A stretch of DNA of 58,327 nt, from NCBI GenBank assembly GCA_021323595.1, contig JAJPKR010000003.1, positions 1-58,327 on the forward strand, given 5' to 3'. Each line of letters opens with the position of its first letter. Positions within the stretch are counted from its first letter, which is position 1. The position numbers were made by a program, and so were the translations under genes. A model generated the notes under the pieces. It saw only the letters and a program-made list of their open reading frames with translations. It did no database searches and was not told where the DNA came from. Positions 13,043 through 46,857 of the stretch are shown piece after piece. This stretch comes from Terriglobia bacterium (GTDB lineage Bacteria > Acidobacteriota > Terriglobia > Terriglobales > SCQP01).

Positions 13043-14424
13043 TGCCGCGCCTCGCCCTTTCTATGATCGTTCGCGACGCCGCCGCTGATCTCGAGCGCTG
13101 CCTGGCCAGCGTCCGCCCCGTGGCGGATGAGATCGTCATCGCTGACACCGGATCGCGCGACAACACGATCGCCGTGGCGCGAGCGCACGGCGCGCGCGTC
13201 ATTTCCATTGCGTGGTCCAACGATTTTGCCGCCGCGCGCAACGCCGCGCTCGAACCGGTGACGGCAGACTGGGTGCTCTCGCTCGATGCCGACGAGCGGC
13301 TCGATCCCGAGGCCCGGCAGGAATTGCCGCGCCTCTTCGCGAACCGCAAAATCGCCGCCTATCAAGTCAACATCCGCAATTACTTCCGCGATGCCCGCAT
13401 TCACATGTACGACCAGCTCGCGCGCGCCAACGACGGCCGTCTCGCGGAAGCTCGCGATTGCGCGGCTTTCGTCGTCCATCAAAACCTGCGGCTATTCCGC
13501 CGCCAGTCCTGGATTCGCTTCGAAGGCCGAGTGCATGAAAACGTCTCCCGCAGCGTCTTGGCGCATGGTGGCGCTATCGGCCCGCCCAGCTTGCTCATTC
13601 ACCACCTCGGCTTGGCCGATCCGGAAGCCATGCGTCGCAAGGCGCAGGCCTATCGCGAACTCGGCAAGCAAAAGGTGCGCGAGATGCCCAACGACGCGCA
13701 AGCGCATCTCGAGCTGGGAGCGGAAGAACTGGAGCATTTTGGCGAGCCGGCCGTCGCGCTGGCGCTGTTCGAGCGCGCCTGCCTCCTCGCTCCCGGGATG
13801 GCGTTGGCCTGGTACTATTTGGGGCTTGCGCGAATTCGCGTCCATCAGCTGCCCGCAGCGGTCGAAGCTCTGACTGCCGCAGAGCGGCTTGGCATATCAG
13901 GACCCTTGCTCTACGATGCGCGCGGCGATGCCCGCTACGATTTAGGTGAGTTTTCGGCGGCGGCGCGAGATTACCGCCGCGCGCTGAAGCTGGTGGGCGA
14001 GTCGGCCCTGATCGAAAGCAAGCTCGGTCTCGCCGAGATCCGCGCGGGCGAGCTGGATGCGGGCTTCGCGCGCATGAAGCGAGCGGTTCGGCGCGAGCCG
14101 GACAACGCAACCGTGCGCGACCGCATGATCGCGGCGGCGGCCGCAGTCCATCGCTTGGCGCTGGCCGCGGAAGCAGCCGAAGATTATTTGCGCGTCATCC
14201 CTCACCCTTCCGAACGCGCCTTTTTGCGGGCCGCCACGCTTCGCGCCCAGCTGCGGCAATGGACGCAAGCGGAAGCGGTGCTGCGCGACGGCCTGTCCCG
14301 ATGGCCAGCCTCGCCGGCGCTGTGCGAAGCGCTGCGGGAAGTCGAGACCGGCGCTGCCGCGCCCATGCCTGAAAACAAGAATCCATCGCTTCCACCTGTA
14401 CCAAATTTTCCTCCGCTGGCCTAA
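13042..14424 (+). CDS. GT2 glycosyltransferase with TPR repeats
   Basis: 460 residues from ATG 13042 (overlapping the upstream TGA); a GTG at 13039 is also possible. Residues 1-230 are a GT2 domain of the SunS-like type (LALSMIVRDAAADLERCLAS, ADTGSRDNT, LSLDADERLDPEA, and HENVSRSVL). Residues 230-440 are TPR-like helices (LELGAEELEHFGEPAVALALFERA). This architecture occurs in protein-modifying glycosyltransferases, where the TPRs bind the acceptor. Lying immediately before the fliC promoter, it likely acts with the preceding enzyme on flagellin. Confidence 0.83.
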   Translation: MPRLALSMIVRDAAADLERCLASVRPVADEIVIADTGSRDNTIAVARAHGARVISIAWSNDFAAARNAALEPVTADWVLSLDADERLDPEARQELPRLFANRKIAAYQVNIRNYFRDARIHMYDQLARANDGRLAEARDCAAFVVHQNLRLFRRQSWIRFEGRVHENVSRSVLAHGGAIGPPSLLIHHLGLADPEAMRRKAQAYRELGKQKVREMPNDAQAHLELGAEELEHFGEPAVALALFERACLLAPGMALAWYYLGLARIRVHQLPAAVEALTAAERLGISGPLLYDARGDARYDLGEFSAAARDYRRALKLVGESALIESKLGLAEIRAGELDAGFARMKRAVRREPDNATVRDRMIAAAAAVHRLALAAEAAEDYLRVIPHPSERAFLRAATLRAQLRQWTQAEAVLRDGLSRWPASPALCEALREVETGAAAPMPENKNPSLPPVPNFPPLA

Positions 14425-26532: not shown

Positions 26533-26897
26533 GGCATGCCTCCGTTGCCGCTGTTGATCGCCGATTGGATGCGGTGCAATTCGCTGGTCAGCAAACTGAT
26601 GCCAACCCGATATTGCAGTTGCGTCTGCGCCAGCGCCATGGCTTCGCGATCAACGCTCACGTTATTGCCGTCGGGGCGCTGCATGAGGCCGGCGACCTCC
26701 TGCACGTCGGGCGTGAATGCCTCGCCCGCCGGCGTCGCCTCGGCCTCCGCCAGTGCGTCCTGAAAATTGAAGTCCAGCGTGTGATAGCGCGGCGTGTCGA
26801 CGTTCGCGATATTGCTCGCGATCAACGATTGCCGCAATCCCGCCAGGTCCAAGAACCGTTGCAGATCGTTGAGATATGGCGTGGTCATCCAGTTCAT
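26529..26897 (-). CDS. flgB: Flagellar proximal rod protein FlgB
   Basis: 122 residues from the ATG at 26897 ([11 protein letters not shown]); a second Met is three residues further on. The frame is open to 27191 but the extension is out-of-frame sequence of the regulator gene. Rod signatures are LAGLRQSLIASNIANVDTPRYHTLDFNF and VSVDREAMALAQTQLQYRVGISLL. The start overlaps the stop of the sigma54-dependent regulator by four bases, coupling regulator and structural genes. Confidence 0.95.
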   Translation of the reverse strand: MNWMTTPYLNDLQRFLDLAGLRQSLIASNIANVDTPRYHTLDFNFQDALAEAEATPAGEAFTPDVQEVAGLMQRPDGNNVSVDREAMALAQTQLQYRVGISLLTSELHRIQSAINSGNGGMP

Positions 26898-28213
26898 GCG
26901 TAGCTCCTGGGAGGAAGCTGATACTCGCGAATCTTGTTGCGGATCGTCCGCAGGCTCATGCCAAGCATGGTGGCGGCCCGGGTGCGGTTGCCGCCGGTCG
27001 CGGCCAACGTGGCCTCGAGCAGCTTGCGTTCCGCCTCGCGCCAAGAGACGCCGGGCTGCAAGCCCGGCGCCGCGCTGGGCGGCGCCGGCCGCGGCTCCTC
27101 CTCGAGTGCTTCCAGGCCGATGCGCGGGCCGCGCGCCAGCGCCAGGGCACGCCGCACGAAGTTTTCGAGCTCGCGCACGTTGCCCGGCCACGCACGCTGC
27201 GCCAGCGCGCGCAGCAGCTCGGGCGTCAACTCGATGAACTCGCCGCCATGCTTGCGCAAGAAATGCGACGCCAAGGCGGGGATGTCCTCGCGCCGCTCGC
27301 GTAAGGGGGGCAGCCGCAGCGGCACCACGTTCAGGCGGTAATAGAGATCCGCGCGAAACTGGCCGCTCTCGACCAGCGCCTGCAAAGCGCGGTTGGTCGT
27401 CGCGATCACGCGCACGTCCACCGCGACCGGCGTCGTGCCCCCGAGCGGATCGACCTCGCGCTCTTGCAAGGCGCGCAGCAGTTTCGGCTGAAGTTCCAGC
27501 GCCATCTCGCCGATTTCATCGAGGAGCAAAGTCCCGCCGTTGGCCAGCTCGAACTTGCCGGCCTTGGACCGATCGGCGCCGCTGAAAGCCCCGCGAACGT
27601 ATCCGAACAGCTCGCTCTCGAGCAAGTGTTCCGGCAACGCCGCGCAGTTGACGGCCACGAAGGGCTTCGCCCGGCGGCGGCTGGCGGCATGAATCGCGCG
27701 CGCCACCAATTCCTTCCCGGTGCCGCTCTCCGCCTCCACCAGAATGTCGGCCTCGGTTGCCGCGATCTGCCCGATGGTCTCACGCAGCCGGGCTATCGCC
27801 GCCGAATCTCCCACCAGTTCTGTGCCGCCGTCCCGCGGCTCCGTCTTGTCCGGCGCGCCGGCCATGACCCGCTCGGCAGCCGCCAGCAACTGCGAAAACG
27901 AGGCCGGCTTCATCAAGTAATCGCAGGCTCCCGCGCGCATCGCCTGGACCGCGTCCGGCACGTTGGCGAAGGCCGTCAGCAGCACGATAGCGGTATTGGG
28001 CGCGCTCTGCCGCACCCCGGCGATCACCTTCATGCCATCGCCGTCGGGCATGCGCATATCGGTGACTACCAACGGGCAGGGTGCTTGGCGAAACTTCGTC
28101 AGCGCCTCTTCCACGCCCGCGGCGGTGGCCACCGACCACCCTTGCCGCCGGAAATTCACCTCCAGCCCCGCGCGCACGCCGGCATCGTCGTCGGCAATGA
28201 GCACACGCTTCAT
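26894..28213 (-). CDS. FleR/FlrC-like sigma54-dependent response regulator
   Basis: 439 residues from the ATG at 28213, overlapping the kinase stop. Domains: receiver (1-120; acidic D8-D10, acceptor D52 in VVTDMRMP), AAA+ sigma54 activator (about 135-365; Walker A AESGTGKE, Walker [12 protein letters not shown]) and a C-terminal Fis-type helix-turn-helix ([28 protein letters not shown]). The sigma54-contact loop reads GAFSGA rather than GAFTGA, and Walker A starts with Ala instead of Gly. It probably drives the sigma54-like promoters of rod, hook and junction genes in this window. Confidence 0.92.
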
Positions 28214-29391
28214 GCCGCCGCCCCCCAGCGCCAGAGCGTCAACGCGAAAGTCGTGCCCTCGCCCGGCTTGCTGGTCACGCTGATCGTGCCGTGATGCTGA
28301 TCCATAATCTTGCGGCAAACCGCCAGGCCCAGCCCCGGACTGCCGGGAAGCGTGCTGAAGCCGGGTTCGAAGATCTTCGCCAGGTCCTCGGCGGCGATGC
28401 CGCACCCTTGATCCACGATCTCGATGCGGATTTGGCCCGTCGCCCCCGGGAGCGCCACGATCCGCAGGCAGCCGCCGCTCGCCGCCATCGCCCGCATGGC
28501 GTTGAGCGCCAGGTTGAACAAAACCTGCTGCAGCCGCGGCGCATCCGCCGCGACCTCCACCGCGCCCAAGCGGTCGTCGAGCTCAAGCGCCAACTGGCGC
28601 TGTTGCGCCAGAGGCTGCAAGAACTCCATCGTGGCGCGCAAGAAACGCTTGAGACGGAGCGGAGCCAGCTCCAGCGCAGGCTCGCTATAAAGATGCAACA
28701 CATTATTGACGGTGGCCGCCAGCAGACGGAGCCCGGCTTGTAACTGCTCGATCCAGGATTTTTCCTCCGTGCCATCCTCGGTGGCTTCCGCCAGCAAGCT
28801 CGCGAAAAGTTCCATGCCGGCGAGCGGATTGCGAATCTCGTGCGCCAGCAGGGCCGACATCTCCGCCAGCGCCTGGCCGCGCTGCCGTTTTCGCTCCAAC
28901 GTCGTGTCGCGAAGAATCAGCAAGCGGTTCTCCGGCACTCCGCCGCCCGCTTCGAGCGGCGCTGCCGTCACGCCCAGCGAACGCGGCTCCCCTTGCTCCG
29001 TTTCCAAACAGAACTCTTCGCCGTTCGGCGTTTCCAAGGCCGACACCAGGCATGGCGGCAGCTCTTGACCCGCTTCAACTCCGGGCTCGCTCCACGGCGT
29101 GATCAACTTTTGTGCCGCGCCGTTGATCGCTTGCACCCGGCCTCCTTCAACCACCACGACCCCGCAGGGCAGACTGGCCAAGATCGCCTCCAGCCGCGCC
29201 CGCATCGCCGAGTTCTCTTGGTTCTTGCGGCGCAGCTCGCGGCGCAAGCGCGCCAGCTCGCCGCGCAAATCGGCGTACGAGCGCTCGAGCAAGCCGGCGG
29301 CTTGATTAAAGTCTTGGAACGCTGCTGCCAACGCCCGCTCGGCGGTGCCGTCGGCCGGCAAGCGTTGCCCGCTGCTAGGCAAAGTTGCCAT
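28210..29391 (-). CDS. FleS-like PAS histidine kinase
   Basis: 393 residues with no membrane segment, hence a cytoplasmic kinase. A coiled coil (ERSYADLRGELARLRRELRRKNQE, 35-58) precedes a PAS domain (60-165), a HisKA domain with phospho-acceptor His184 (LLAHEIRNPLAGM) and an HATPase domain (N-box NLALNAMRAM, G-boxes DQGCGI and GLGLAVC). Overlap with the next gene, the sigma54 regulator, makes them a cognate pair like FleS-FleR or FlgS-FlgR, which sense basal-body or export-gate completion. Confidence 0.9.
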   Translation of the reverse strand: MATLPSSGQRLPADGTAERALAAAFQDFNQAAGLLERSYADLRGELARLRRELRRKNQENSAMRARLEAILASLPCGVVVVEGGRVQAINGAAQKLITPWSEPGVEAGQELPPCLVSALETPNGEEFCLETEQGEPRSLGVTAAPLEAGGGVPENRLLILRDTTLERKRQRGQALAEMSALLAHEIRNPLAGMELFASLLAEATEDGTEEKSWIEQLQAGLRLLAATVNNVLHLYSEPALELAPLRLKRFLRATMEFLQPLAQQRQLALELDDRLGAVEVAADAPRLQQVLFNLALNAMRAMAASGGCLRIVALPGATGQIRIEIVDQGCGIAAEDLAKIFEPGFSTLPGSPGLGLAVCRKIMDQHHGTISVTSKPGEGTTFALTLWRWGAAA

Positions 29392-29406
29392 CCTGCCTAG
29401 TCGCCC

Positions 29407-29422
29407 TGCAGCTGGAGTGCCG
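29407..29422 (-). promoter_or_regulatory. Candidate sigma54 promoter of the kinase-regulator-flgB operon
   Basis: Read on the minus strand, CGGCACT-CCAG-CTGCA keeps GG and GC at exact -24/-12 spacing and GGCAC intact. Transcription would start near 29396, five bases before the kinase ATG. Confidence 0.45.
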
Positions 29423-29453
29423 CAATTGGTTAAAAAGCTCCAACGCCACCGCG

Positions 29454-30611
29454 TTAGTGCTCATTCCCGATCGCGCACACTTCCTCGGGCAGGTGCCAGG
29501 GCATGATCTCCGGCTCGCCGCTAGCGAGAATCACCCCTCGTTCGATGGCATGCCGAAGCTGGCGCACATTGCCGGGCCAGGCGTAAGCGCCGATGGCGGT
29601 TTCGGCTTCGCGGCTGAACCGTTTGTTGGCCGCGCCGTCGCGCCGGCAGAATTCCGCCAGGAATTGCCGCGCCAGCAGCACCACGTCCCCGGCGCGTTCC
29701 CGCAGCGGCGGCAGTTCCAAGGGGAACACCGCCAGCCGGTAGTAAAGATCGGAGCGAAACAGGCCCTGCTCGACCTTCTGTTCCAGGCGCGAATTCGTGG
29801 CCGCGACGATGCGCACGTCCACACGAAACACGTCGGAACTGCCCAGCCGCTGTACTTCCCCCTCCTGGATAAACCGCAGCAGTTTCGCTTGCATGCCCAG
29901 CGGCAGTTCCCCGACTTCGTCCAGGAACAACGTGCCGCGATGGGCCGCATGGACCCGCCCCAAGCTGGCCTGCACGGCGCCCGTAAACGCCCCGCGCGTA
30001 TGACCGAACAGCTCCGACTCGAGCAGCGCCTCGGGAATCGCCGCGCAATTGACGACCACCCAGGGCTGGGCCGCGCGCCCGCTCAACTGATGCAAGCCGC
30101 GCGCCACGACTTCTTTGCCGGTGCCGCTTTCGCCCGTGATCAACACGGTGGTGTCGCGCAAGGCGATCAGCCGCGCCAGATGAAACACCCGCTGCATCGC
30201 CGGGCTCGCGCCCAGCATGCCGGGCAAAGGTTCGGCGCGCGGCGTTTCCTGCGGCCGCCTGCGCCAGGGCGTGAGCGGCGCGGGCGCCGGGCCGGCGGCC
30301 CGCCCGGGATTGTGCGAATCGATCAGTAGAACTCGCAACGCCGGGTTTTGCTGCCGAATGCGCAGCGCCACCTCTTCCGCGTCCAAGTCCGGCAGCCGTC
30401 GGTCCAGCAGGATCGTGCCGGCCGCGCCGTCCTCGAGCTTGGCCAGCGCGTCCGCCCCGCCCACCGCTTCGAGCGCCGTTACCAGGCGCTCTTCGCAGCG
30501 GGCCCGGGCCAAACTTCGAAATTCCGCATTCGCGCTTGCGACCAATACCCGGTCGCGGGGAGATAGAGAGAGGGAATCCAGATCGAGCGTGGGGAGAGCA
30601 GAAGTTGACAT
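29454..30611 (-). CDS. FleQ-like sigma54 activator lacking a DNA-binding domain
   Basis: 385 residues. An atypical receiver-like domain (20-105) keeps an Asp at 70 (ILLDRRLPD) but lacks the usual N-terminal acidic pair (RVLVASANAEF). The AAA+ domain is intact: Walker A GESGTGKE at 160-167, GAFTGA at 207-212, Walker B GTLFLDE near 226-232, and YRLAVFPLELPPLRERAGDV. The protein ends just after the AAA+ lid (WPGNVRQLRHAIERG... EIMPWHLPEE) with no Fis-type helix-turn-helix. It is probably a master or accessory flagellar activator working without direct DNA binding, as Helicobacter FlgR does. A TATAGT -10-like element lies upstream at about 30645, suggesting housekeeping transcription. Confidence 0.88.
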   Translation of the reverse strand: MSTSALPTLDLDSLSLSPRDRVLVASANAEFRSLARARCEERLVTALEAVGGADALAKLEDGAAGTILLDRRLPDLDAEEVALRIRQQNPALRVLLIDSHNPGRAAGPAPAPLTPWRRRPQETPRAEPLPGMLGASPAMQRVFHLARLIALRDTTVLITGESGTGKEVVARGLHQLSGRAAQPWVVVNCAAIPEALLESELFGHTRGAFTGAVQASLGRVHAAHRGTLFLDEVGELPLGMQAKLLRFIQEGEVQRLGSSDVFRVDVRIVAATNSRLEQKVEQGLFRSDLYYRLAVFPLELPPLRERAGDVVLLARQFLAEFCRRDGAANKRFSREAETAIGAYAWPGNVRQLRHAIERGVILASGEPEIMPWHLPEEVCAIGNEH

Positions 30612-30729: not shown

Positions 30730-31614
30730 ATGAACATGACGGAAATGTGCGCAGAATCGGCGGCAGCAGGCCTGTTTGGCCCAAGTCTCGACGCCGCCGT
30801 CGTGCGCGTGCGCGACACCCTGTACCAAACCAGCGGATTCTTCATGCCCACCGCACACTGGCCGCGCCTGCAAGAAAGCTGCGAGCGCCGCATGCAGGCG
30901 CTCGGCATCGCCTCGCTGCGCGAATACTCCGCGCGCTTGGCCTCCGCCTCCGCCGGCGAGGAACTCGGACACTTGCTCGGCCAGCTCAGCGCCGGCGAGC
31001 GCTTCTTCTTTCGCTACCCGCAGCAGTTGGAAGCCTTGCGCCGCATCGTTTTGCCCGCACTCCGGCTGCAGCCCGAGCGCGAAGCTGCCGCAAACGTCGC
31101 TTGCATCGGCGGTGGCGAGGACGCGTACACGCTGGCCCTGATCCTGGCGGAGCAGGCGGCGCTGGACGGGCGCTTCCACGTTTACGCTTGTGATGCCGAC
31201 CCCGCCCGGCTGGCCGCCGCGCGGCGCGGCGTGTTCGCGGCGGCCGCGCTGTCACAGACGCCGCCGCATCTGCGGGCAAAGTATTTCCGGGCGATTGCCC
31301 CGGAGACCTTCGCCGTGACCCCGGCGCTGAAGCAGCATCTAACCTTCTGCAATGCGAGCCTGGCGGGACCTGCGGCCGCGCTCCTCGAAATGGGCATGGA
31401 CGTCATCTTCTGCCGCGATCTCATCGCGCGGCTCGATCCGCTGCAACGGCGCCGCGCGGTCGGCCTCCTCGCCGCCAGCCTCAACTCCCACGGCTACTTG
31501 TTCTTCTCGCCGTTCGAGTCGCCGATGGGCGCCGAGCTGCACCACTTGCGCTTGATCCATTTCCCCGCCGCCACCGCCTATCGCAAGGTGCCGGCTCCGG
31601 CCAACTGGTCATGA
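30730..31614 (+). CDS. cheR: CheR-family chemotaxis methyltransferase
   Basis: 294 residues from ATG 30730; ATG 30736 and 30745 are alternatives. CheR methylates glutamates of chemoreceptors using S-adenosylmethionine. The N-terminal helical domain (FFMPTAHWPRLQESCERRMQALG, then FFRYPQQLEALRRIVLPAL) precedes the Rossmann-like domain (VACIGGGEDAYTLALIL in place of the usual GCSTGEEPYS, then VYACDADPARLAAARRGVF and MDVIFCRDLIARLDPLQRRRAVGLL). The SAM-binding motif is divergent. No other che genes are present in the window. The next gene overlaps by four bases. Confidence 0.85.
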   Translation: MNMTEMCAESAAAGLFGPSLDAAVVRVRDTLYQTSGFFMPTAHWPRLQESCERRMQALGIASLREYSARLASASAGEELGHLLGQLSAGERFFFRYPQQLEALRRIVLPALRLQPEREAAANVACIGGGEDAYTLALILAEQAALDGRFHVYACDADPARLAAARRGVFAAAALSQTPPHLRAKYFRAIAPETFAVTPALKQHLTFCNASLAGPAAALLEMGMDVIFCRDLIARLDPLQRRRAVGLLAASLNSHGYLFFSPFESPMGAELHHLRLIHFPAATAYRKVPAPANWS

Positions 31615-32516
31615 GCGACAACGTGCGCAACGCCCTCGTGGAGCGGATCAAGAACGTCCAGGCGATGCCGACGGTTCCGCCCACGCTATTGCCGCTCTTG
31701 CACATGCTGGAATTGCCCGCCGATCAGTGGGACATGCGCAAGATCGTCGACTTGATCTCTTGCGACCCGTCGCTGGCGGCGCAATGCCTGCGCATGGCCA
31801 ATTCCCCGCTGTTTGGCCGCAGTCGCACGATTACCACGATTCACGCGGCAGTCATCACCATCGGCACCGGCCGGCTATGGGATCTGCTCACCGCCTTCTG
31901 CCTCATGGACCTGGCTCCTGCCGAGCAATGGTTACTGGATCCCCTCTCGTTCTGGGAGCACTCCTTCGGCTGCGCCTTGATCAGCCGTCATTTGGCCCAG
32001 ATTGTCGGCTTCAGCCAGCCGGATAAGGCCTATGCCGGCGGGCTCTTGCATGACATCGGCGAAATGGTCAACTCCTTGTTGTTCCCCAAGGAATTCCGCG
32101 CCGCCGCCGACTTGGCTTTCACTGAGGAAATCTCCCTGGTGGAAGCCGAGCAATACGTCATGGGCATCTCCCATTGCGAAGCCGGGCGCCTCTTAGCCGA
32201 CCACTGGCATATGCCCGAAGACTTGGCGCAGGTGATCCGCTGCCACCATCACGAAGTTGCACCAACGCCGGAACACGCGGCCTTGGTCATGATCGTCAGC
32301 CTCGCCGACTTGCTCTGCCGCGTCCGCGGCATGGATTACGGCTACTACGAGGCCGTGCAGGTCGATCTCGTCGCCGATCCGGCCTGGTTGTATCTCGTTC
32401 GCGAGTTCCCGCGCTTGCGCGACGTAGACCTAGTGCGACTCAGTCACGAACTGGATGACTACGCCAGTGAAGCCAAGCGGATCGTCGCCGCGGTTTTCCG
32501 CACCGACTCGAAGTAA
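31611..32516 (+). CDS. HDOD domain protein
   Basis: 301 residues. A full HDOD domain spans 15-210 (MPTVPPTLLPLLHMLE, LISCDPSLAAQCLRMANSPLFG, TTIHAAVITIGTGRLWDLLTAF, YAGGLLHDIGEMVN, EVICHHHEV-like QVIRCHHHEVAP). The HD-type pair HDIGE is present, but HDOD proteins are usually non-catalytic scaffolds. It overlaps cheR, and fliK follows. It is the second HDOD gene of the locus; both have nearby sigma28-like promoters, suggesting a motility signalling role. Confidence 0.85.
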   Translation: MSDNVRNALVERIKNVQAMPTVPPTLLPLLHMLELPADQWDMRKIVDLISCDPSLAAQCLRMANSPLFGRSRTITTIHAAVITIGTGRLWDLLTAFCLMDLAPAEQWLLDPLSFWEHSFGCALISRHLAQIVGFSQPDKAYAGGLLHDIGEMVNSLLFPKEFRAAADLAFTEEISLVEAEQYVMGISHCEAGRLLADHWHMPEDLAQVIRCHHHEVAPTPEHAALVMIVSLADLLCRVRGMDYGYYEAVQVDLVADPAWLYLVREFPRLRDVDLVRLSHELDDYASEAKRIVAAVFRTDSK

Positions 32517-39194: not shown

Positions 39195-39203
39195 GTGTTC
39201 GCC

Positions 39204-40298
39204 ATGGCGAACGAGAAGACAGAACAGCCCACGCCGCGACGACGGCAAAAGGCGCGCGAAGAAGGCCAAATCTCGCGCAGCGCCGATCTGTCGTCGGCGC
39301 TGGCCGTGCTGGCGGCCTTGCTCATCATGTTTTGGGCTCCGGCACGCATGGCCGCGACCTGGCGGGCATTCCTGGCCGGCACGCTCGACCAGGCCGTCCT
39401 GCCGGGCGCCTTCCACGTCGTGCCACTGCTGAATCAAGCCGATCTCCTGATCTTGCGCTGGACCCTGCCCGCCCTGGCCGGCGCCTGGGCCCTCGCCGTG
39501 CTCGCGAGCGTGGCGCAAGGCGGGCTGCTCTTCGCCCCCTCCCGCCTCGCCCCCAAAATCGAACGCATCAACCCGGCCGGCAACCTCAAGCGCATCTTTT
39601 CCCCGGCTTCCGCCAGCCGCCTGCTGCGCTCGCTCTTGCCCGCGGGCGCGATGGCCTATGTTTGCCTGCTTGTCTTCGGGCGCGAGTGGTCCCACCTCGC
39701 GCTGGCGCTGCATCGCGGCACCGCGTTCATCGTGAGTTGGTCGCTGGGTCTGGCCTTCGAGATCGGCTGGAAGGCAGGCTTGATCTTGCTGCTCTGGTCG
39801 GGCGTGGATTACGCGCTGCAGCGCCGCCAGCTCTCGCAACAGTTGAAGATGACGAAAGAAGAGGTGCGGCGCGACTTCAAGGAAACCGAGGGCAACCCGG
39901 AAAACAAGCGCCGCATTCGCCGCGCGCAGCGCACGCTGGCGAGCCGCCGGCGGCGCCAGCAACTCCAGGCGGTGGCGGGCGCCACCGTCGTGGTGGTCAA
40001 TCCCACCGAATACGCCATCGCCCTGCGCTACGATCCCAGCACCACGCCGGCGCCGATCGTCGTCGCCAAGGGCCGCGACCACCTGGCGCGCCAAATCAAG
40101 CGCGAGGCTCTCTGGCATGACGTGCCCACGGTGGAAAACGTCCCGCTGGCGCACGCGCTCTATCGCGCGGTCGAGGTCGGGCAGATGATTCCGGCTTCGC
40201 TCTACGCCGCCGTCGCCGAAATTCTCGCCTTCTTGCATCAGCGCGGGCGCATGGCGAACGTCGCGCCGCGCTCGCTCGCCGCCGGGAGGCTCGCCTAA
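39204..40298 (+). CDS. flhB: Flagellar export switch protein FlhB, NPTE variant
   Basis: 364 residues from ATG 39204; GTG 39195 is an alternative. FlhB controls the export-specificity switch. The basic N-terminus (EKTEQPTPRRRQKAREEGQISRSADL) and four membrane helices are typical, as is QLKMTKEEVRRDFKETEGNP. The autocleavage site, normally NPTH, reads NPTE at residues 266-269 (VVVNPTEYAIALRYD). The Asn-Pro needed for cleavage is intact; the His is replaced by Glu. Confidence 0.96.
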   Translation: MANEKTEQPTPRRRQKAREEGQISRSADLSSALAVLAALLIMFWAPARMAATWRAFLAGTLDQAVLPGAFHVVPLLNQADLLILRWTLPALAGAWALAVLASVAQGGLLFAPSRLAPKIERINPAGNLKRIFSPASASRLLRSLLPAGAMAYVCLLVFGREWSHLALALHRGTAFIVSWSLGLAFEIGWKAGLILLLWSGVDYALQRRQLSQQLKMTKEEVRRDFKETEGNPENKRRIRRAQRTLASRRRRQQLQAVAGATVVVVNPTEYAIALRYDPSTTPAPIVVAKGRDHLARQIKREALWHDVPTVENVPLAHALYRAVEVGQMIPASLYAAVAEILAFLHQRGRMANVAPRSLAAGRLA

Positions 40299-42356
40299 AT
40301 GGCCGCGAAAACCGCCAGCGCCGCTCTCGCGCCCTCGCGCCGCGGCCGCGCCGACTGGATCGTGCCGCTCGCCGCCGTCGCCTTGATCTTGGTGATGCTG
40401 GTGCCGATGCCGGCGATGCTGCTGGACGTGCTGCTCACGCTCAGCATCACCGCCTCGGTGCTCGTGCTGCTGAGCGCGATCTCCGTGCTGCGGCCGGTGC
40501 AGTTTTCCGTCTTCCCTTCCCTCTTGCTGCTGCTGACGCTGTTCCGCCTCTCGCTGAACTTGGCCAGCAGCCGCCGCATCTTGCTCCATGGCAGCGACGG
40601 CCCCGCCGCCGCGGGCCACGTCATCGAGGCCTTCGGCCAGTTCGTGGTCGGCGGCAATTACGTCGTCGGTTTCGTCATCTTTCTCGTGCTGATCGCGATC
40701 CAGTACATCGTCGTCAGCCATGGCGCCGTGCGCACGGCCGAAGTCTCCGCCCGCTTCACCCTGGACGCGCTGCCCGGCAAGCAGATGGCGATCGACGCCG
40801 ACCTCAACGCCGGCTTGATCGACGAGCAGCAGGCGCGCGTCCGGCGCGAAGCCATCGCCCGCGATGCCGAATTCCACGGCGCCATGGACGGCGCCGCGCG
40901 CTTCAATCAGCGCGACGCGCTCGCCAGCGTCCTGATCACCTCCATCAACATCATCGCGGGATTCCTCATCGGCGTCTTCCAGCAAGGCATGGCCTTTCAG
41001 GACGCGCTGCGCACCTACACCATCCTCACCGTCGGCGACGGGCTGGTGACGCTGATCCCCTCCCTGCTGGTGTCGGTGGCGGGCGGCATCGTGCTCACTC
41101 GCGCCGCCAGCGACGAATCGCTCGGCCAAGACCTGCGCCGGCAACTGCTCGGCCGCCGCCAGCCGCTGTGGATCGCCGCCGGCATTCTGCTGGCGGTGGC
41201 CTTGATCCCCGGCCTGCCGAAATGGCCCTTTCTCCTGCTCTCCGCCGGCTTGGCGATGCTGGCGCGCCGCACCCGCGAGGGCCAGCCCGCGCCCGCCGAG
41301 GCCGCGCCCAAGCCCGCCAGCCTGCAACAACAACTGGAGGGCCTGCTGAAACTCGAAGACCTGAGCCTGGAGGTCGGCTACGGGCTGGTCGCCTGCGTGG
41401 ACGAGAAGCAGGGCGGACAACTGCTGCCGCGCATTCGCTCGCTGCGCAAACACTTGGCGACGCAGCTCGGCTTCATCGTGCCGCCGATTCACATCACCGA
41501 CAATCTCCGTCTCAAGCCCAACGAATACGTCATCTATCTCCGCGGCGCCGAGCTCGCCCGCTGGGAAACCTACGCCGACCATCTGCTCGCCATCAGCGCC
41601 GAACCCACGCCGCCACCGCTCGAGGGCCACGACACGCGCGAGCCCGCCTTCGGCGTCGCCGCGAAATGGATACCGCCCGCCGCCCAGGAGCACGCCCTCG
41701 CCGCCGGCTACGCCGTCGTGGACCAGACCTCGGCCATCGCCACGCATTTGGCCGAGGTGATCAAGGCGCACGCGCATGAGTTGCTCTCCCGGCAAGAGAC
41801 CAAGCGCCTGCTCGACGCGCTCTCCGAATCGCAGCCGAAGCTGGTCGAGGAGCTGGTGCCCAAGGTGCTGTCGCTCGGCGAAGTGCAGAAGGTGCTGCAG
41901 CAATTGCTGCGCGAACAGGTCTCCATCCGCGATCTGGCGACCATCCTGGAGACCTTGCTCGATCAGGCCGCGGTCAACAAGAATCCCGTCTTGCTGGTGG
42001 AAGCCGTGCGGCAAGCGCTGCGCCGCTCCCTGATCCGGCCCTTGCTCGGCGACGACGGCAAGCTGATGGTCGTCACCCTCGATCCGCAACTCGAGGAAGA
42101 GCTCAGCCGCGCTTGGGAGCCGGCGGCGCCCGCGGGGAACGGCTTGCAAGGTTCGTTCCTGCGCCGCGTCGTCGAGGGCCTGCGCCGCTTGGGCGAAGAG
42201 AGCGCGGCGCCGCTGGCTCCCGTGCTGCTCTGCGGCTCGCCGGCGCGCTTCTATCTGCGCCGGCTGGTCGAGCCGTTCCTGCCCAAACTAGTCGTGCTAT
42301 CGCCGGGAGAGATCCCGCCTTTGGTTTCAGTCCAGTCTTTGGGAGTCGTGCGATGA
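40299..42356 (+). CDS. flhA: Flagellar export gate protein FlhA
   Basis: 685 residues, normal. FlhA is the proton-driven export gate with eight N-terminal helices and a large cytoplasmic domain. Signatures: LTLFRLSLNLASSRRILL (79-96) and RFTLDALPGKQMAIDADLNAGLI (152-174). The usual GAMDGAxKFVxGD segment reads GAMDGAARFNQRD (194-206), keeping the Asp but not the Lys and Gly. The C-terminal part (VGYGLVACVDEKQGG to the end) matches FlhA-C. It starts directly after the flhB TAA. Confidence 0.96.
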   Translation: MAAKTASAALAPSRRGRADWIVPLAAVALILVMLVPMPAMLLDVLLTLSITASVLVLLSAISVLRPVQFSVFPSLLLLLTLFRLSLNLASSRRILLHGSDGPAAAGHVIEAFGQFVVGGNYVVGFVIFLVLIAIQYIVVSHGAVRTAEVSARFTLDALPGKQMAIDADLNAGLIDEQQARVRREAIARDAEFHGAMDGAARFNQRDALASVLITSINIIAGFLIGVFQQGMAFQDALRTYTILTVGDGLVTLIPSLLVSVAGGIVLTRAASDESLGQDLRRQLLGRRQPLWIAAGILLAVALIPGLPKWPFLLLSAGLAMLARRTREGQPAPAEAAPKPASLQQQLEGLLKLEDLSLEVGYGLVACVDEKQGGQLLPRIRSLRKHLATQLGFIVPPIHITDNLRLKPNEYVIYLRGAELARWETYADHLLAISAEPTPPPLEGHDTREPAFGVAAKWIPPAAQEHALAAGYAVVDQTSAIATHLAEVIKAHAHELLSRQETKRLLDALSESQPKLVEELVPKVLSLGEVQKVLQQLLREQVSIRDLATILETLLDQAAVNKNPVLLVEAVRQALRRSLIRPLLGDDGKLMVVTLDPQLEEELSRAWEPAAPAGNGLQGSFLRRVVEGLRRLGEESAAPLAPVLLCGSPARFYLRRLVEPFLPKLVVLSPGEIPPLVSVQSLGVVR

Positions 42357-42366
42357 AAGGGAAACC

Positions 42367-43173
42367 ATGACTGCGGCCCAAGCCTATCAATCCGGCCCGG
42401 ATGAGGCCGCGGAGATCGAGCGCCGCCTGCTGGAACAACTGCCCCAGGTGCATCTGATCGCCCGCCGCATCCATGATCGCCTGCCGCGCCACGTCGCGCT
42501 CGACGATCTGGTGCAAGCGGGCGTCGTCGGCCTGATGGACGCGGTGCGCAAGTACGACGCCAGCAAAAACGTCCCCTTGCCCGCGTACGCCAAATTCCGC
42601 ATTCGCGGCGCCATTCTCGACAGCCTGCGCGCCCTCGATTGGAGCCCGCGCGAGCTGCGCCGCAAGGCGCGCGGCATCGAGGAGGCCCATGCCCGCCTGC
42701 ACGCCGCCCTCGGCCGCGCCGCCAGCGACGAAGAAGTCGCCGCCGAGCTGCGCATGGAGCTGGAGGAGTTCCAACAGCTCCTCGGCGAATTGCGCGGCCT
42801 CGAGCTGGGCAGCTTCGAAGCGCAATTTCCCGGCGAAGAGCCCGGCGTCTATCTCCCCAACGCGCCCGAACAAGACCCCTACTTCGTCTGCCTGCGATCG
42901 GAGTTGAAGCGCGAACTGGCGCAAGCGATCGAGGAATTGCCCGATCGCGAGCGCCAGCTCATGGCCCTGTACTACTTCGAGGAACTGACGATGAAGGAAA
43001 TCGGCGCCGTGCTCGGCATCGGCGAATCCCGCGTGTGCCAAATCCACGCCGCGGTGCTGATCCGCCTGCGCGCGCGGCTCCGCGCCATGAGCCCCGAGCG
43101 GCGTCCCGCCGCCGCCGTACCCGCAGCCCCTAAGGAACGACATGCCCGACCCGCTCAACCAACACGAGATTGA
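42367..43173 (+). CDS. fliA: Flagellar RNA polymerase sigma factor FliA (sigma28)
   Basis: 268 residues. Sigma region 2 (LPQVHLIARRIHDRLPRHVALDDLVQAGVVGLMDAVRKYDASKNVPLPAYAKFRIRGAILDSLRALDWSPR), region 3 and region 4 (LAQAIEELPDRERQLMALYYFEELTMKEIGAVLGIGESRVCQIHAAVLIRLRARL) are typical of FliA/WhiG. It should recognise the TAAAG-N11-GCCGATA sites found before fliC, flgM, flbD, cheR and the HDOD gene. FlgM (7156-7458) is its antagonist. The last 32 bases overlap fliM. Confidence 0.95.
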   Translation: MTAAQAYQSGPDEAAEIERRLLEQLPQVHLIARRIHDRLPRHVALDDLVQAGVVGLMDAVRKYDASKNVPLPAYAKFRIRGAILDSLRALDWSPRELRRKARGIEEAHARLHAALGRAASDEEVAAELRMELEEFQQLLGELRGLELGSFEAQFPGEEPGVYLPNAPEQDPYFVCLRSELKRELAQAIEELPDRERQLMALYYFEELTMKEIGAVLGIGESRVCQIHAAVLIRLRARLRAMSPERRPAAAVPAAPKERHARPAQPTRD

Positions 43174-44140
43174 CGAACTCGCCCGCCGCGCCCGCGTTTC
43201 CCCGCCGGCCGGCGGCCCGGCGGCGCGCGCCCGCGCCCGCGCCGTCGCCGCCTGCAACTTCCGCACCGTCGGCCAGATCAGCCGCGAAGAAACCGTGGCC
43301 ATCACCCGCCTGCACGAACCCTTCGCCCGCAATCTGGCGCATTCGCTCGGCGCTTACCTGCGCACGATGCTCGAGCTTTCGCTCGCTTCCGTCGAGCAGC
43401 TCACCTATTCCGAGTTCCTGTCGCGCGTGCCCGAGATCACCTACCTCGCTTCCCTGCGCATGATGCCGCTCGATGCGGCGGCGGCGGTGCACATCGATCT
43501 CAGCATCGCCTTCCCCATCATCGACGTCCTCCTCGGCGGCAAGGGCGAAGCCGATTTCCAAGCCCGCGAGGTCACCGATATCGAAGATGGAATCCTGGAA
43601 AATATCGTGCGCTTGATCTCGCGCGAGCTGCATTCCGCCTGGGAGCAGATCTTGCCCCAGGAATTCGAGTACGAGCAGCGGTGGCAGGCGGCGCAGCTCA
43701 TGCAGTTCATGTCGCCCAACGAGCGCGTGCTGGTGATCGGCTTCGCTCTCAAGATGGCGCAGGCCTCCGGCCAATTTCACGTGCTGCTGCCCGCGCTCGC
43801 CTCCGGCGCGCTGCTGCGCCGCCTCTCGCTCGAATACACGGGGCAAAAGCGCCGCGGCACGCCGGAGGAGCTGGCGCGCATTCGCACGCGCCTGCTGCAA
43901 TGCCCGTTCGCGGTGGAGCTGCTGCTGCCCGGCGGCGTTTCCAGCGTGCACGAATTGATGGCGCTCGAGCCCAATCAGGTGCTGCCGCTCAATCTGCCCC
44001 TCGATTCTCCCGCCTATCTCGCCGTCGCCGGCTTGCGGCTCTATCTCGCCGCGCCCGCGCGCAGCGGCGCGCTGCGCGCCAGCCACATCAAGCAGCGGCT
44101 TTCGCTCGCCGAGAAAGGAAAGTCCCATGACGAACTCTGA
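43142..44140 (+). CDS. fliM: Flagellar motor switch protein FliM
   Basis: 332 residues. The N-terminal CheY-P-binding motif is present (LNQHEIDEL, 5-13, like LSQxEIDAL). The CheC-like middle domain has the GGKG motif (DVLLGGKGEADF) and REVTDIEDGILENIVRLI. The C-terminal SpoA domain (LLLPGGVSSVHELMALEPNQVLPLNLPLDSPAYLAVAGLRLYLA) binds FliN. AAGGA precedes the ATG. fliN overlaps the end by 14 bases. Confidence 0.95.
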   Translation: MPDPLNQHEIDELARRARVSPPAGGPAARARARAVAACNFRTVGQISREETVAITRLHEPFARNLAHSLGAYLRTMLELSLASVEQLTYSEFLSRVPEITYLASLRMMPLDAAAAVHIDLSIAFPIIDVLLGGKGEADFQAREVTDIEDGILENIVRLISRELHSAWEQILPQEFEYEQRWQAAQLMQFMSPNERVLVIGFALKMAQASGQFHVLLPALASGALLRRLSLEYTGQKRRGTPEELARIRTRLLQCPFAVELLLPGGVSSVHELMALEPNQVLPLNLPLDSPAYLAVAGLRLYLAAPARSGALRASHIKQRLSLAEKGKSHDEL

Positions 44141-45092
44141 TCCCCAACCAACCCTCCAAGCGGCGTACGCCGCCGCCTGGGCGGCGGCGCTGGCGCAGGT
44201 GCTGGCCGCATGCAGCGGCGCCGCCGTGGATGCCGAGCTGCTCGCCCCCGAGCATGCCGACGCGCAAGCGGCCGCCGGCGGCTTTTGGCTGCGCTGGCGC
44301 GTGCGCGGCGCCTGGCAGGGCGAGCAAGCCATGGCGCTCAGCGCCGCCGACGCCGTGGTGCTGGCGCAACTCGCCGCCCATCAGCCGGCCGACCGCCAGG
44401 CCGAACTCAACGCCGGCCATGCCGAGAAGCTCGCGCAATGGGCGCAAGAGCTCGCCGCCGCGGCGCGCGCGCAACTGAGCGCGCTGGGCGCGGTAGAGTT
44501 CGAATTCGCCGGCACGCAGGCGCTCGCCGCCCATGCCGCGAGCTTCGCCTGCCGCTGCGCCGGCGAAGGCCTGCCGCCGCTCTCCCTCGCCGTGGCGCTC
44601 GATGCCTCGCTGGCGGAGGCGCTGCGCGGCCCGGCAGCGCCGCCGGCCGCCGCGCCGCTTGCGGCCCCACCGGCCGCCGCCGCGCCCGCACCGGCCGCGG
44701 ATGCCGAGCCCGCCCTGGCACCACCGGGAGAACCCAAGGCGCCGCCCGCCGCCGGCACCGCCAATCCGATCGATGCGGAGCTGGAGCCCGACTTCAGTGC
44801 GCCGCGCCGCGCTCCCGAAGGCAATCTCGATCTCCTGCTCGACGTCCCTTTGGACGTCAGTTTGCGCTTCGGCGGCCGGCAAATGGTGCTCAAGGATATC
44901 CTCGAGCTCGGCCCCGGCGCGGTGATCGAGCTCGATCGCGGAGTGCAGGATCCGGTAGAGCTGTTGGTCGCCGGCCGCGTCGTCGCTCACGGCGAGGTCG
45001 TGATCCTAGACGGCAACTACGGCCTCCGGGTCACCGAAATCGCCTCGCCGCGGCATCGCCTGAGCACCTTCGGCAGCCCCTTTCTCAAATGA
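44127..45092 (+). CDS. fliN: FliN-family C-ring protein with an N-terminal extension
   Basis: 321 residues, much longer than simple FliN. The C-terminal 95 residues are a FliN SpoA domain (NLDLLLDVPLDVSLRFGGRQMVLKDILELGPGAVIELDRGVQDPVELLVAGRVVAHGEVVILDGNYGLRVTEI). Residues 1-165 form an Ala-rich helical domain, possibly a degenerate FliM/FliY-like middle domain, linked by Pro/Ala sequence. It is coupled to fliM. The window has another FliN-like gene at 36479. Confidence 0.9.
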   Translation: MTNSDPQPTLQAAYAAAWAAALAQVLAACSGAAVDAELLAPEHADAQAAAGGFWLRWRVRGAWQGEQAMALSAADAVVLAQLAAHQPADRQAELNAGHAEKLAQWAQELAAAARAQLSALGAVEFEFAGTQALAAHAASFACRCAGEGLPPLSLAVALDASLAEALRGPAAPPAAAPLAAPPAAAAPAPAADAEPALAPPGEPKAPPAAGTANPIDAELEPDFSAPRRAPEGNLDLLLDVPLDVSLRFGGRQMVLKDILELGPGAVIELDRGVQDPVELLVAGRVVAHGEVVILDGNYGLRVTEIASPRHRLSTFGSPFLK

Positions 45093-45107: not shown

Positions 45108-46001
45108 ATGCACCTTCGCTTTGAACTCTCCGCCTGGCGCCCCAACCTGCCTCCGCTGCGGCCGTGCGGCAATCCCGATTGCCTGCAGCACCGGCCCCTG
45201 CCGCGCGCCTTGGCTTGGCAATGGGATGGCCGCCGCCTCTGCTCCCCCGAATGTTTCGCCGCCGCCGCCGAAGCCGATTGCGCGCGCCTGCTGCCCGCGC
45301 TGGCGCCGGCGCCGGCACCGCGGCATCGCATGCCGCTGGGGCTGCTGATGGTCGAACAAGGCTTCCTCGCCGCCGAAGATCTTCGCCGCGCCCTGGCCGC
45401 GCAACAGCAAGCCGGCGCCGGCCGCATCGGCTACTGGCTCACGCGCCTCGGCTTCGCGAGCGAATCCCAAATCACCGCCGCGCTGGCGCGGCAATGGGGC
45501 TGCTCGGTGTTTCCGCTGGCCGAAACCGCCTGCGAGCCCGCCGTCAGCCGCCTGTTGCCGCGGGCGCTGCAAGTGGGCTTCGGCCTCGTGCCCGCCCATT
45601 TCGCTGCCGCCCGCCGCACGCTCTTCGTCGCTTGCCGCGACGGCATCGTGCGCTCGGCGCTTTACGCCATGGAACGCATGTTGGGCCTGACGCTCGAGCC
45701 TTGTTTCGCCGACGCCTCCGCCGTGGACGCCCGCTTGGCCGCGCTCAGCGGCGTTCGCGATGCCGCCGGCCAGGCCGGGGAAGCGCTCCCGAATGAAGCC
45801 AGCTTCGACAGTCCCTTTTCCGCCGCCGAGCTGGCGGCGTGCGCGCGCGGCTATGCCGTCAAGCTGCGCCTGCGCAGCGCTCGCGCCGTCACCTGCTCCG
45901 AGTACCTCTGGGTTCGTTGCGCCGGCGTGGAGACGCACTTCGATCTGGTCTTTCATCGCCCGCACCGCCGCATGGCCGCCTTCGGTCCAGGCCTGCCCTA
46001 G
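45108..46001 (+). CDS. Stand-alone MshEN-domain protein with a Cys cluster
   Basis: 297 residues. An N-terminal zinc-site-like Cys cluster (CGNPDC at 20-25 and CSPEC at 45-49) is followed by two tandem MshEN-type motifs: PLGLLMVEQGFLAAEDLRRALAAQ (76-99) and RIGYWLTRLGFASESQITAALARQ (106-129). MshEN domains of type II secretion and pilus ATPases bind c-di-GMP through such repeated motifs, but no ATPase follows here. The remainder (about 150-297) resembles the rest of a GspE N-domain plus unknown sequence. It follows fliN by 15 bases, so a role in second-messenger control of motility is an attractive inference. Confidence 0.75.
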   Translation: MHLRFELSAWRPNLPPLRPCGNPDCLQHRPLPRALAWQWDGRRLCSPECFAAAAEADCARLLPALAPAPAPRHRMPLGLLMVEQGFLAAEDLRRALAAQQQAGAGRIGYWLTRLGFASESQITAALARQWGCSVFPLAETACEPAVSRLLPRALQVGFGLVPAHFAAARRTLFVACRDGIVRSALYAMERMLGLTLEPCFADASAVDARLAALSGVRDAAGQAGEALPNEASFDSPFSAAELAACARGYAVKLRLRSARAVTCSEYLWVRCAGVETHFDLVFHRPHRRMAAFGPGLP

Positions 46002-46213: not shown

Positions 46214-46729
46214 ATGGCGAAAAAGGTCGAAGCAAAATCGCCCGAAGCCAGCGACCAGGAATGGATGGCGCAGGCGCTGGAGTTGGCGCGGGCGGCGGAA
46301 CTGGCGGGGGAAGTGCCGGTGGGCGCGATCGTGGTTTCGCCCGAAGGCGTGGTGCTGGGGCGCGGCTATAACCGAACGATCCTCGACGTGGACCCCAGCG
46401 CGCACGCCGAGATCGTGGCGCTGCGCGAGGCGGCGTGGAAAACCGGCAATCACCGCCTCGCCGGCTGTACCGTCATCGCCACGCTCGAGCCTTGCGCGAT
46501 GTGCGCGGGGGCGCTGGTGCAGGCCCGCGTGGCGCGGCTGGTCTATGGCGCCGACGATCCCAAAGCCGGCGCCATCCGCTCGGTGCTCGGGCTGGCGGCG
46601 CATCCCCGGCTGAACCATTCCTTCGCCGTCGCCGCGGGCGTGCGCGGGGAGGAGTGCGGCGCGCTGCTGCGCGCGTTTTTCGAGCGGCGGCGCGCCGATG
46701 CCGCCGCGGAGCAAAGCCCGATAAAATAG
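46214..46729 (+). CDS. tadA: tRNA-specific adenosine deaminase TadA
   Basis: 171 residues. TadA converts A34 to inosine in tRNA-Arg(ACG). The zinc and catalytic residues are present: HAE at 64-66 and PCAMC at 93-97. Other family features are EVPVGAIVV, GRGYNRTI and RLVYGADDPKAGAIRSVL. The acidic/basic first 14 residues are an extension of the usual start. It is separated from the flagellar locus by about 210 bp with no gene. Confidence 0.95.
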   Translation: MAKKVEAKSPEASDQEWMAQALELARAAELAGEVPVGAIVVSPEGVVLGRGYNRTILDVDPSAHAEIVALREAAWKTGNHRLAGCTVIATLEPCAMCAGALVQARVARLVYGADDPKAGAIRSVLGLAAHPRLNHSFAVAAGVRGEECGALLRAFFERRRADAAAEQSPIK

Positions 46730-46767: not shown

Positions 46768-46857
46768 GGAGAGGTGGCCGAGTGGCTGAAGGCGCGCGCC
46801 TCGAAAGCGTGTATACCTGAAAGGGTATCGGGGGTTCGAATCCCTCCCTCTCCGCCA
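46768..46857 (+). tRNA. tRNA-Ser (CGA)
   Basis: A complete 90-nt class II tRNA. Acceptor stem GGAGAGG pairs with CCTCTCC, followed by discriminator G and encoded CCA. The D arm is GCCGAGTGGCTGAAGGC. The anticodon loop CTCGAAA gives anticodon CGA (serine, codon UCG) on a CGCGC/GCGTG stem. The long variable arm (ATACCTGAAAGGGTAT) is typical of tRNA-Ser. T arm GGGGGTTCGAATCCCTC is present. Confidence 0.96.

Follow-up and report, generated by a model that had tools for sequence, protein, structure and literature searches.

A stand-alone Cys4-MshEN protein encoded next to fliN in flagellated Acidobacteriota: a candidate c-di-GMP receptor of the flagellar switch

The last gene of a flagellar switch operon in a Terriglobia bacterium encodes a protein of 297 residues, termed here Cys4-MshEN, in which an N-terminal Cys4 module is followed by an MshEN (GSPII) domain (residues 74-217) and a small domain at the C-terminus, after which the protein ends. 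The gene lies at 45108..46001 on the forward strand of the window, which is the whole stretch of 58,327 nucleotides that was analysed, and is defined by its open reading frame and translation, a match to NF053729, an AlphaFold model and orthologues across the phylum. There is about an even chance that the product is a flagellum-dedicated MshEN-type c-di-GMP receptor that acts on the C-ring, most likely on FliN. The best reading is a known type of function carried out by a new architecture. We infer the ligand, the zinc, the partner and the direction of the effect; for action on the switch the pointer is gene linkage, which is tightest to fliN.

The gene closes a same-strand run of flagellar genes, so that its position at the end of the operon, as first described from the sequence, is confirmed. 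The run begins with flhB (39195..40298; Pfam Bac_export_2, 3.1e-105) and flhA (40299..42356; Pfam FHIPEP, 8.3e-246), and continues with a flagellar-type sigma-70 gene (42367..43173; Pfam Sigma70 r2, r3 and r4), FliA/WhiG-like by size, domains and place. It then contains fliM (43142..44140; Pfam FliM, 5e-43) and fliN (44127..45092), all on the forward strand; the latter encodes 321 residues with the FliN C-terminal domain at 236-306 (FliMN_C, 7.5e-22; TIGR02480 above cut-off). Cys4-MshEN starts 15 bases past the fliN stop at 45092 and ends the run in the window, since a deaminase gene (46214-46729) and, beyond it, a tRNA-Ser (46768-46857) come next. A promoter and terminator scan gave nothing exceeding shuffled sequences.

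The window also contains much of the remaining flagellar cluster, in which unscanned genes were named by sequence recognition and by their order in relatives. Two long ORFs at 10508-14424, between flgL-like and flagellin-like ORFs, both start like glycosyltransferases and may possibly serve flagellin glycosylation. Genes for two sigma-54 activators, one of them with a complete receiver domain, lie at 26894-30611 amid flagellar genes, adjoined by genes for CheR (30730-31614) and an HDOD protein (31611-32516).

The tandem MshEN motifs proposed at residues 76-99 and 106-129 are borne out by the NCBIfam model NF053729 (MshE-type c-di-GMP motif), which scores 42.1 bits over residues 76-129, above its curated cut-off of 38, and by the MshE fold of the domain. 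Motif I (PLGxx...Q; 45333..45404, forward strand) and motif II (RIGxx...Q; 45423..45494, forward strand) are delimited by this model and by column counts. Some details of the earlier note had to be revised: motif I starts with Pro76 and not with Arg, the two motifs are separated by 6 residues in the query and not by 5, and the domain extends beyond the two motifs to about residue 217. The extension is the MshEN_C subdomain (residues 131-217; 45498..45758, forward strand), recognised by Pfam MshEN (PF05157) at 23.0 bits, 0.1 bit below the cut-off of 23.1, and by the VIA match to 5HTL. The AlphaFold model of the whole protein, built on 67 sequences (pLDDT 89, pTM 0.85), contains the two halves of the MshEN fold, a four-helix MshEN_N and an alpha/beta MshEN_C. 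The best structural match, found by Foldseek and by VIA with the AlphaFold model as query, is MshE with c-di-GMP (5HTL), which fits residues 74-214 with a Z of 12.2 and an rmsd of 3.2 over 138 residues.

A phmmer search of the PDB found PilF, PilB and MshE, with PilF and PilB as the best sequence matches. This similarity is more than chance, because profile and phmmer E-values lie between 1e-11 and 1e-18 and the protein is conserved phylum-wide. Pfam and NCBIfam scans of the 297 residues revealed no RecA-like ATPase core with Walker motifs, and Pfam gave no PilZ match at E up to 1. An ATPase-free MshEN protein after fliM and fliN, both confirmed by Pfam and NCBIfam, is thus real. The only other match in the source genome is a 644-residue frame of the pilus/secretion ATPase type. 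Pfam matches of members to DUF4388, SymE, HPTransfase and other families were weak (best 0.0033) and scattered, and were set aside.

Comparison with the paired consensus RLGxx(h)(h)xxG(h)(h)xxxxLxxxLxxQ reveals that NF053729 is matched above its cut-off and that the ligand positions are largely kept apart from the Pro at the start of motif I. All 67 aligned members match NF053729 at E up to 0.1. L77, G78, G108 and Q129 are present in 67/67, Q99 in 66/67 and L92, L96 and L126 each in at least 64/67, while 66 of the 67 have R or K at position 106. Motif I opens with Pro rather than Arg in every one of the 67, a count that is partly so by construction, since this set (A2) was found by a pattern containing PLGL; the same Pro is present in all 32 rows of set A1, which were found without that pattern. 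Deeper lineages mostly have K, R or L there. In motif II, position 122 is V or I and not L in 66/67 members, and the turn Gly that the query has at position 115 is usually lost in the others.

Studies on related proteins indicate how such changes may be read. In MshE, mutation of the Gly abolishes c-di-GMP binding and changes of Arg9, Asp12 or Gln32 cost at most about fivefold; the Gly and Leu10 positions matter most for binding and the Arg least (PMC5013675). In PilF, GSPII-B K167L binds c-di-GMP at 2 nM, GSPII-C, whose sole deviation is P335, binds at ~0.3-0.5 uM, and the motif was widened to (R/K/L)LG (PMC11731258, PMC12002112). GSPII-C of Thermus thermophilus PilF is a c-di-GMP-binding GSPII domain with one Pro-first motif (PMC11731258); it differs in belonging to a pilus/DNA-uptake ATPase, in having three motif copies and in carrying the Pro in the second. 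Because the ligand residues are mostly kept and GSPII-C binds despite the same substitution, binding of c-di-GMP by Cys4-MshEN is plausible, with conserved ligand residues, the fold and the precedent of Pro-, Lys- and Leu-first motifs as its support. PilF GSPII-A, which has the right fold, may fail to bind even with its motifs restored (PMC12002112), so that fold and even restored motifs are insufficient as proof of binding.

If it binds, c-di-GMP held between the two motifs would alter the packing of the MshEN helices, and this in turn would change the docking of the protein on the cytoplasmic C-ring, with FliN as the likeliest site. A rise in c-di-GMP would then adjust motor direction, speed or assembly, as YcgR-type PilZ proteins do elsewhere. 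In traffic ATPases the N-terminal MshEN domain is a regulatory and docking module, and GspE docks on GspL through its N1 domain. A second reading, which we consider unlikely yet worth weighing, retains docking alone: the protein would be a nucleotide-independent accessory of the C-ring or the export apparatus that helps to assemble or anchor FliN or the products of the rod genes. The lack of Arg from motif I in 67/67 members and the drift of motif II suit this reading, as do the strong operon fixation with fliN and flgF/flgG, which befits a structural role, and the precedent of XpsE, where binding is lost through changes at key residues (PMC5013675). Docking alone, however, does not explain why Q129 and the Gly of both LG pairs never vary and Q99 is kept in 66/67, and the gene is missing from some flagellated relatives. 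For the receptor reading itself, the replacement of MshE's guanine-stacking Arg by Pro and the departure of motif II from the consensus are counted against.

The Cys4 module (C20-x4-C25 ... C45-x3-C49; 45165..45254, forward strand) was delimited by cysteine conservation and the secondary structure of the model. C20, C45 and C49 are invariant in the 67 aligned members and C25 is present in 64/67; with this conservation and a zinc-finger-like spacing, the Cys4 cluster described in the earlier note stands. In the AlphaFold model the module is treble-clef-like, with a hairpin at 37-44 followed by a helix at 47-64, and the four conserved cysteines make a zinc site probable.

As a further revision, there is a third, beta-alpha-beta-beta-beta domain at residues 226-287 (45783..45968, forward strand), identified from an AlphaFold model of this part alone with a pLDDT of 88. 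W268 is invariant in this domain and R270 nearly so. Its fold matches are weak: residues 102-170 of EpsE (1p9w) fit with a Z of 4.5 and an rmsd of 2.8, and halves of glyoxalases with a Z of up to 5.7. In hhalign the C-terminal part alone is collinear with ASDIHIEP/RVRFRIDG, at a level that is not significant. The domain may be the N2 domain of a secretion ATPase in shortened form, the EpsE match being tied with those of the unrelated glyoxalase halves.

Orthologues were sought in genomes with the query protein (P0001) and then with profiles built from its relatives. A pattern scan of 84,980 species genomes gave 113 relatives, of which 80 were kept; the pattern used, HR[VIM]PLGL..., is specific to near relatives. 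The 80 bear Acidobacteriota-type titles (Acidobacteria, Terriglobia, Edaphobacter, Granulicella and others) except for one MAG. That MAG, titled Betaproteobacteria, carries the gene in a locus of identical gene order. Within the order of the source, orthologues follow fliN in most flagellated genomes, and the profile search placed the gene again between fliN and flgF/flgG in other families of the phylum, deep lineages included. A sigma gene, flhA, fliM or fliN lies just upstream at 72 of the 73 testable loci from named genomes, and flgF-flgG are often found 3' of the gene in relatives. The start of the gene overlaps the fliN stop in 39 of the 71 cases measured, most by the same 13 bases; three overlaps span several hundred bases, where start codons were probably called too far upstream.

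The constancy of fliN, which adjoins the gene in nearly all relatives, makes FliN the likeliest partner; operon linkage in itself suggests shared function and not direct contact with FliN. At five loci (L051, L052, L049, L032 and L162) fliN and the Cys4-MshEN gene are paired and fliM was not found near fliN. That the pairing is kept even there is counted for a receptor acting at FliN. At another locus (L139) an orphan copy stands beside a response-regulator-like ORF; the 6 kb upstream contain no recognised flagellar genes.

Gene order also bears on a possible role in gene expression. A c-di-GMP-responsive regulator that, for example, holds the operon's own sigma factor would follow a logic comparable to that of RsiG-WhiG in Streptomyces; in most relatives the sigma gene belongs to the same run, three genes ahead of this one, and Cys4 modules often mediate contacts to proteins or nucleic acids. 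We judge such a role improbable, since fliN and not the sigma gene is the most constant neighbour, cheY/cheX alongside the gene in some relatives point to the switch, and no anti-sigma or DNA-binding family in Pfam or NCBIfam matched the protein.

The same cheY and cheX genes, which follow the gene in that order in some Acidobacteriaceae, invite a further explanation, namely a chemotaxis-branch adaptor that works with CheY/CheX and, instead of acting by itself on FliN, couples c-di-GMP to the CheY signal at the switch. MshEN occurs elsewhere in ATPases, in glycosyltransferases and in fusions with CheA, CheX and other proteins (PMC5013675), of which the CheA and CheX fusions lend this idea some support. 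It is nevertheless very improbable: neither the window nor the deeper lineages examined have cheY/cheX 3' of the gene, and in one deeper family genes for HDOD and DUF2802-like proteins precede it instead.

MshEN domains occur most often at the N-terminal end of ATPases for pili and secretion. A regulator of type IV pili or type II secretion that lies near flagellar genes by chance would accord with this distribution and with PilF/PilB as best PDB sequence matches. The earlier note had held that a location of orthologues mainly with pilus genes would speak against its proposal; they sit with the flagellar switch operon, and no pilus clusters occurred among the loci examined. In a tree of the MshEN part, a branch supported at 95/86 separates all 32 Cys4 rows from the ATPases. 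This separation and the flagellar synteny at 72/73 loci led us to reject the pilus or secretion reading, which we hold to be hardly credible; moreover, 15 of the 16 flhA-negative relatives, several with a PilB-like ATPase, are without the gene. Four ATPase-free proteins of ~280-340 residues from another Acidobacteriota family (L193, L194, L195 and L197) were rejected as orthologues: they align to the profile solely over its MshEN part (about 83-220), the tree places them with the ATPases, and no flagellar gene was recognised in their vicinity.

The Cys4-MshEN gene is co-inherited with flagellar genes. Among 60 relatives from the order, 39 have both flhA and the gene, 5 have flhA only, 1 has the gene only and 15 have neither, so that the gene is present in 39/44 genomes with flhA and in 1/16 without; the Fisher p of 4e-9 refers to species that are non-independent, without correction for phylogeny, and some of the genomes are incomplete. 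Four genomes with flhA (G002, G025, G039 and G059) have no copy adjoining the switch genes, and in G007 the contig stops at flhA, which leaves absence of the gene there unproven. Relatives that are flagellated and lack the gene, or in which it went undetected, mark Cys4-MshEN as a flagellar accessory and not a strictly required core part. The five such relatives, together with the orphan copy described above, are counted against the receptor reading. The only genome with the gene and without flhA (G049, locus L201) keeps fliM, fliN and the gene, flhA not being found in the genome; loss of the flagellum may be under way there, or the assembly may have a gap. We also note a genome with two flhA matches (G052), in which the cluster on C1 (L202) is without the gene after fliN and that on C2 has the gene nearby.

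The source genome contains seven GGDEF matches, and these diguanylate cyclase domains are counted for a c-di-GMP receptor. The YcgR N-domain PF12945 is absent from it and from 15 of the 16 genomes tested. PilZ gave no match in G005, G009 and G011 of genus g6, which are flagellated and carry the gene (G011 is 82% complete). Both absences are counted for the receptor reading, and the three PilZ matches in the source genome, which could serve the motor, are counted against it. Taken together, the stand-alone MshEN family and its neighbourhood link to the switch, as put forward in the earlier note, are well supported, and the effector role proposed there is supported in part.

The relation of Cys4-MshEN to known systems can be summarised as follows. 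It shares with the MshEN domain of Vibrio cholerae MshE (5HTL) and with the GSPII domains of PilB and PilF the fold, the two-motif layout and nearly all ligand residues. Unlike these proteins, it lacks an ATPase, has an additional Cys4 module and a Pro in place of Arg in motif I, and is encoded with flagellar and not with pilus genes. NfrB, a c-di-GMP-activated glycosyltransferase, also has MshEN outside an ATPase, and residues 72-210 of the query align with that MshEN part in a partial match to NF008411; NfrB differs in being a glycosyltransferase and in having no flagellar link. The proposed role resembles that of YcgR, FlgZ, MotL and PlzD, c-di-GMP-dependent action on rotor or stator (PMC9303241), whereas the fold of those proteins is PilZ, unrelated to MshEN. 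Cle proteins are likewise c-di-GMP effectors at the flagellar motor (PMC5677366), and differ in their CheY-like receiver fold without MshEN. A search of open-licence papers found none that links MshEN to the motor or describes a fliN-adjacent stand-alone Cys4-MshEN protein.

Control of the motor by c-di-GMP has so far been attributed mainly to PilZ proteins of the YcgR type and to CheY-like Cle proteins; MshEN, if the receptor reading is true, would be a third route. We suggest tentatively, at somewhat less than even likelihood, that a regulatory and docking module of pilus or secretion ATPases lost its motor and was joined to a zinc module to become an ancient part of the Acidobacteriota C-ring, through which c-di-GMP reaches the switch without PilZ or CheY-like effectors. 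By the third route, a sensing module of pili and secretion systems would be tied to the flagellar rotor, and the parts list of the C-ring would gain an uncharacterised protein. This would also account for a possible link between motility and c-di-GMP in flagellated Acidobacteriota without PilZ proteins.
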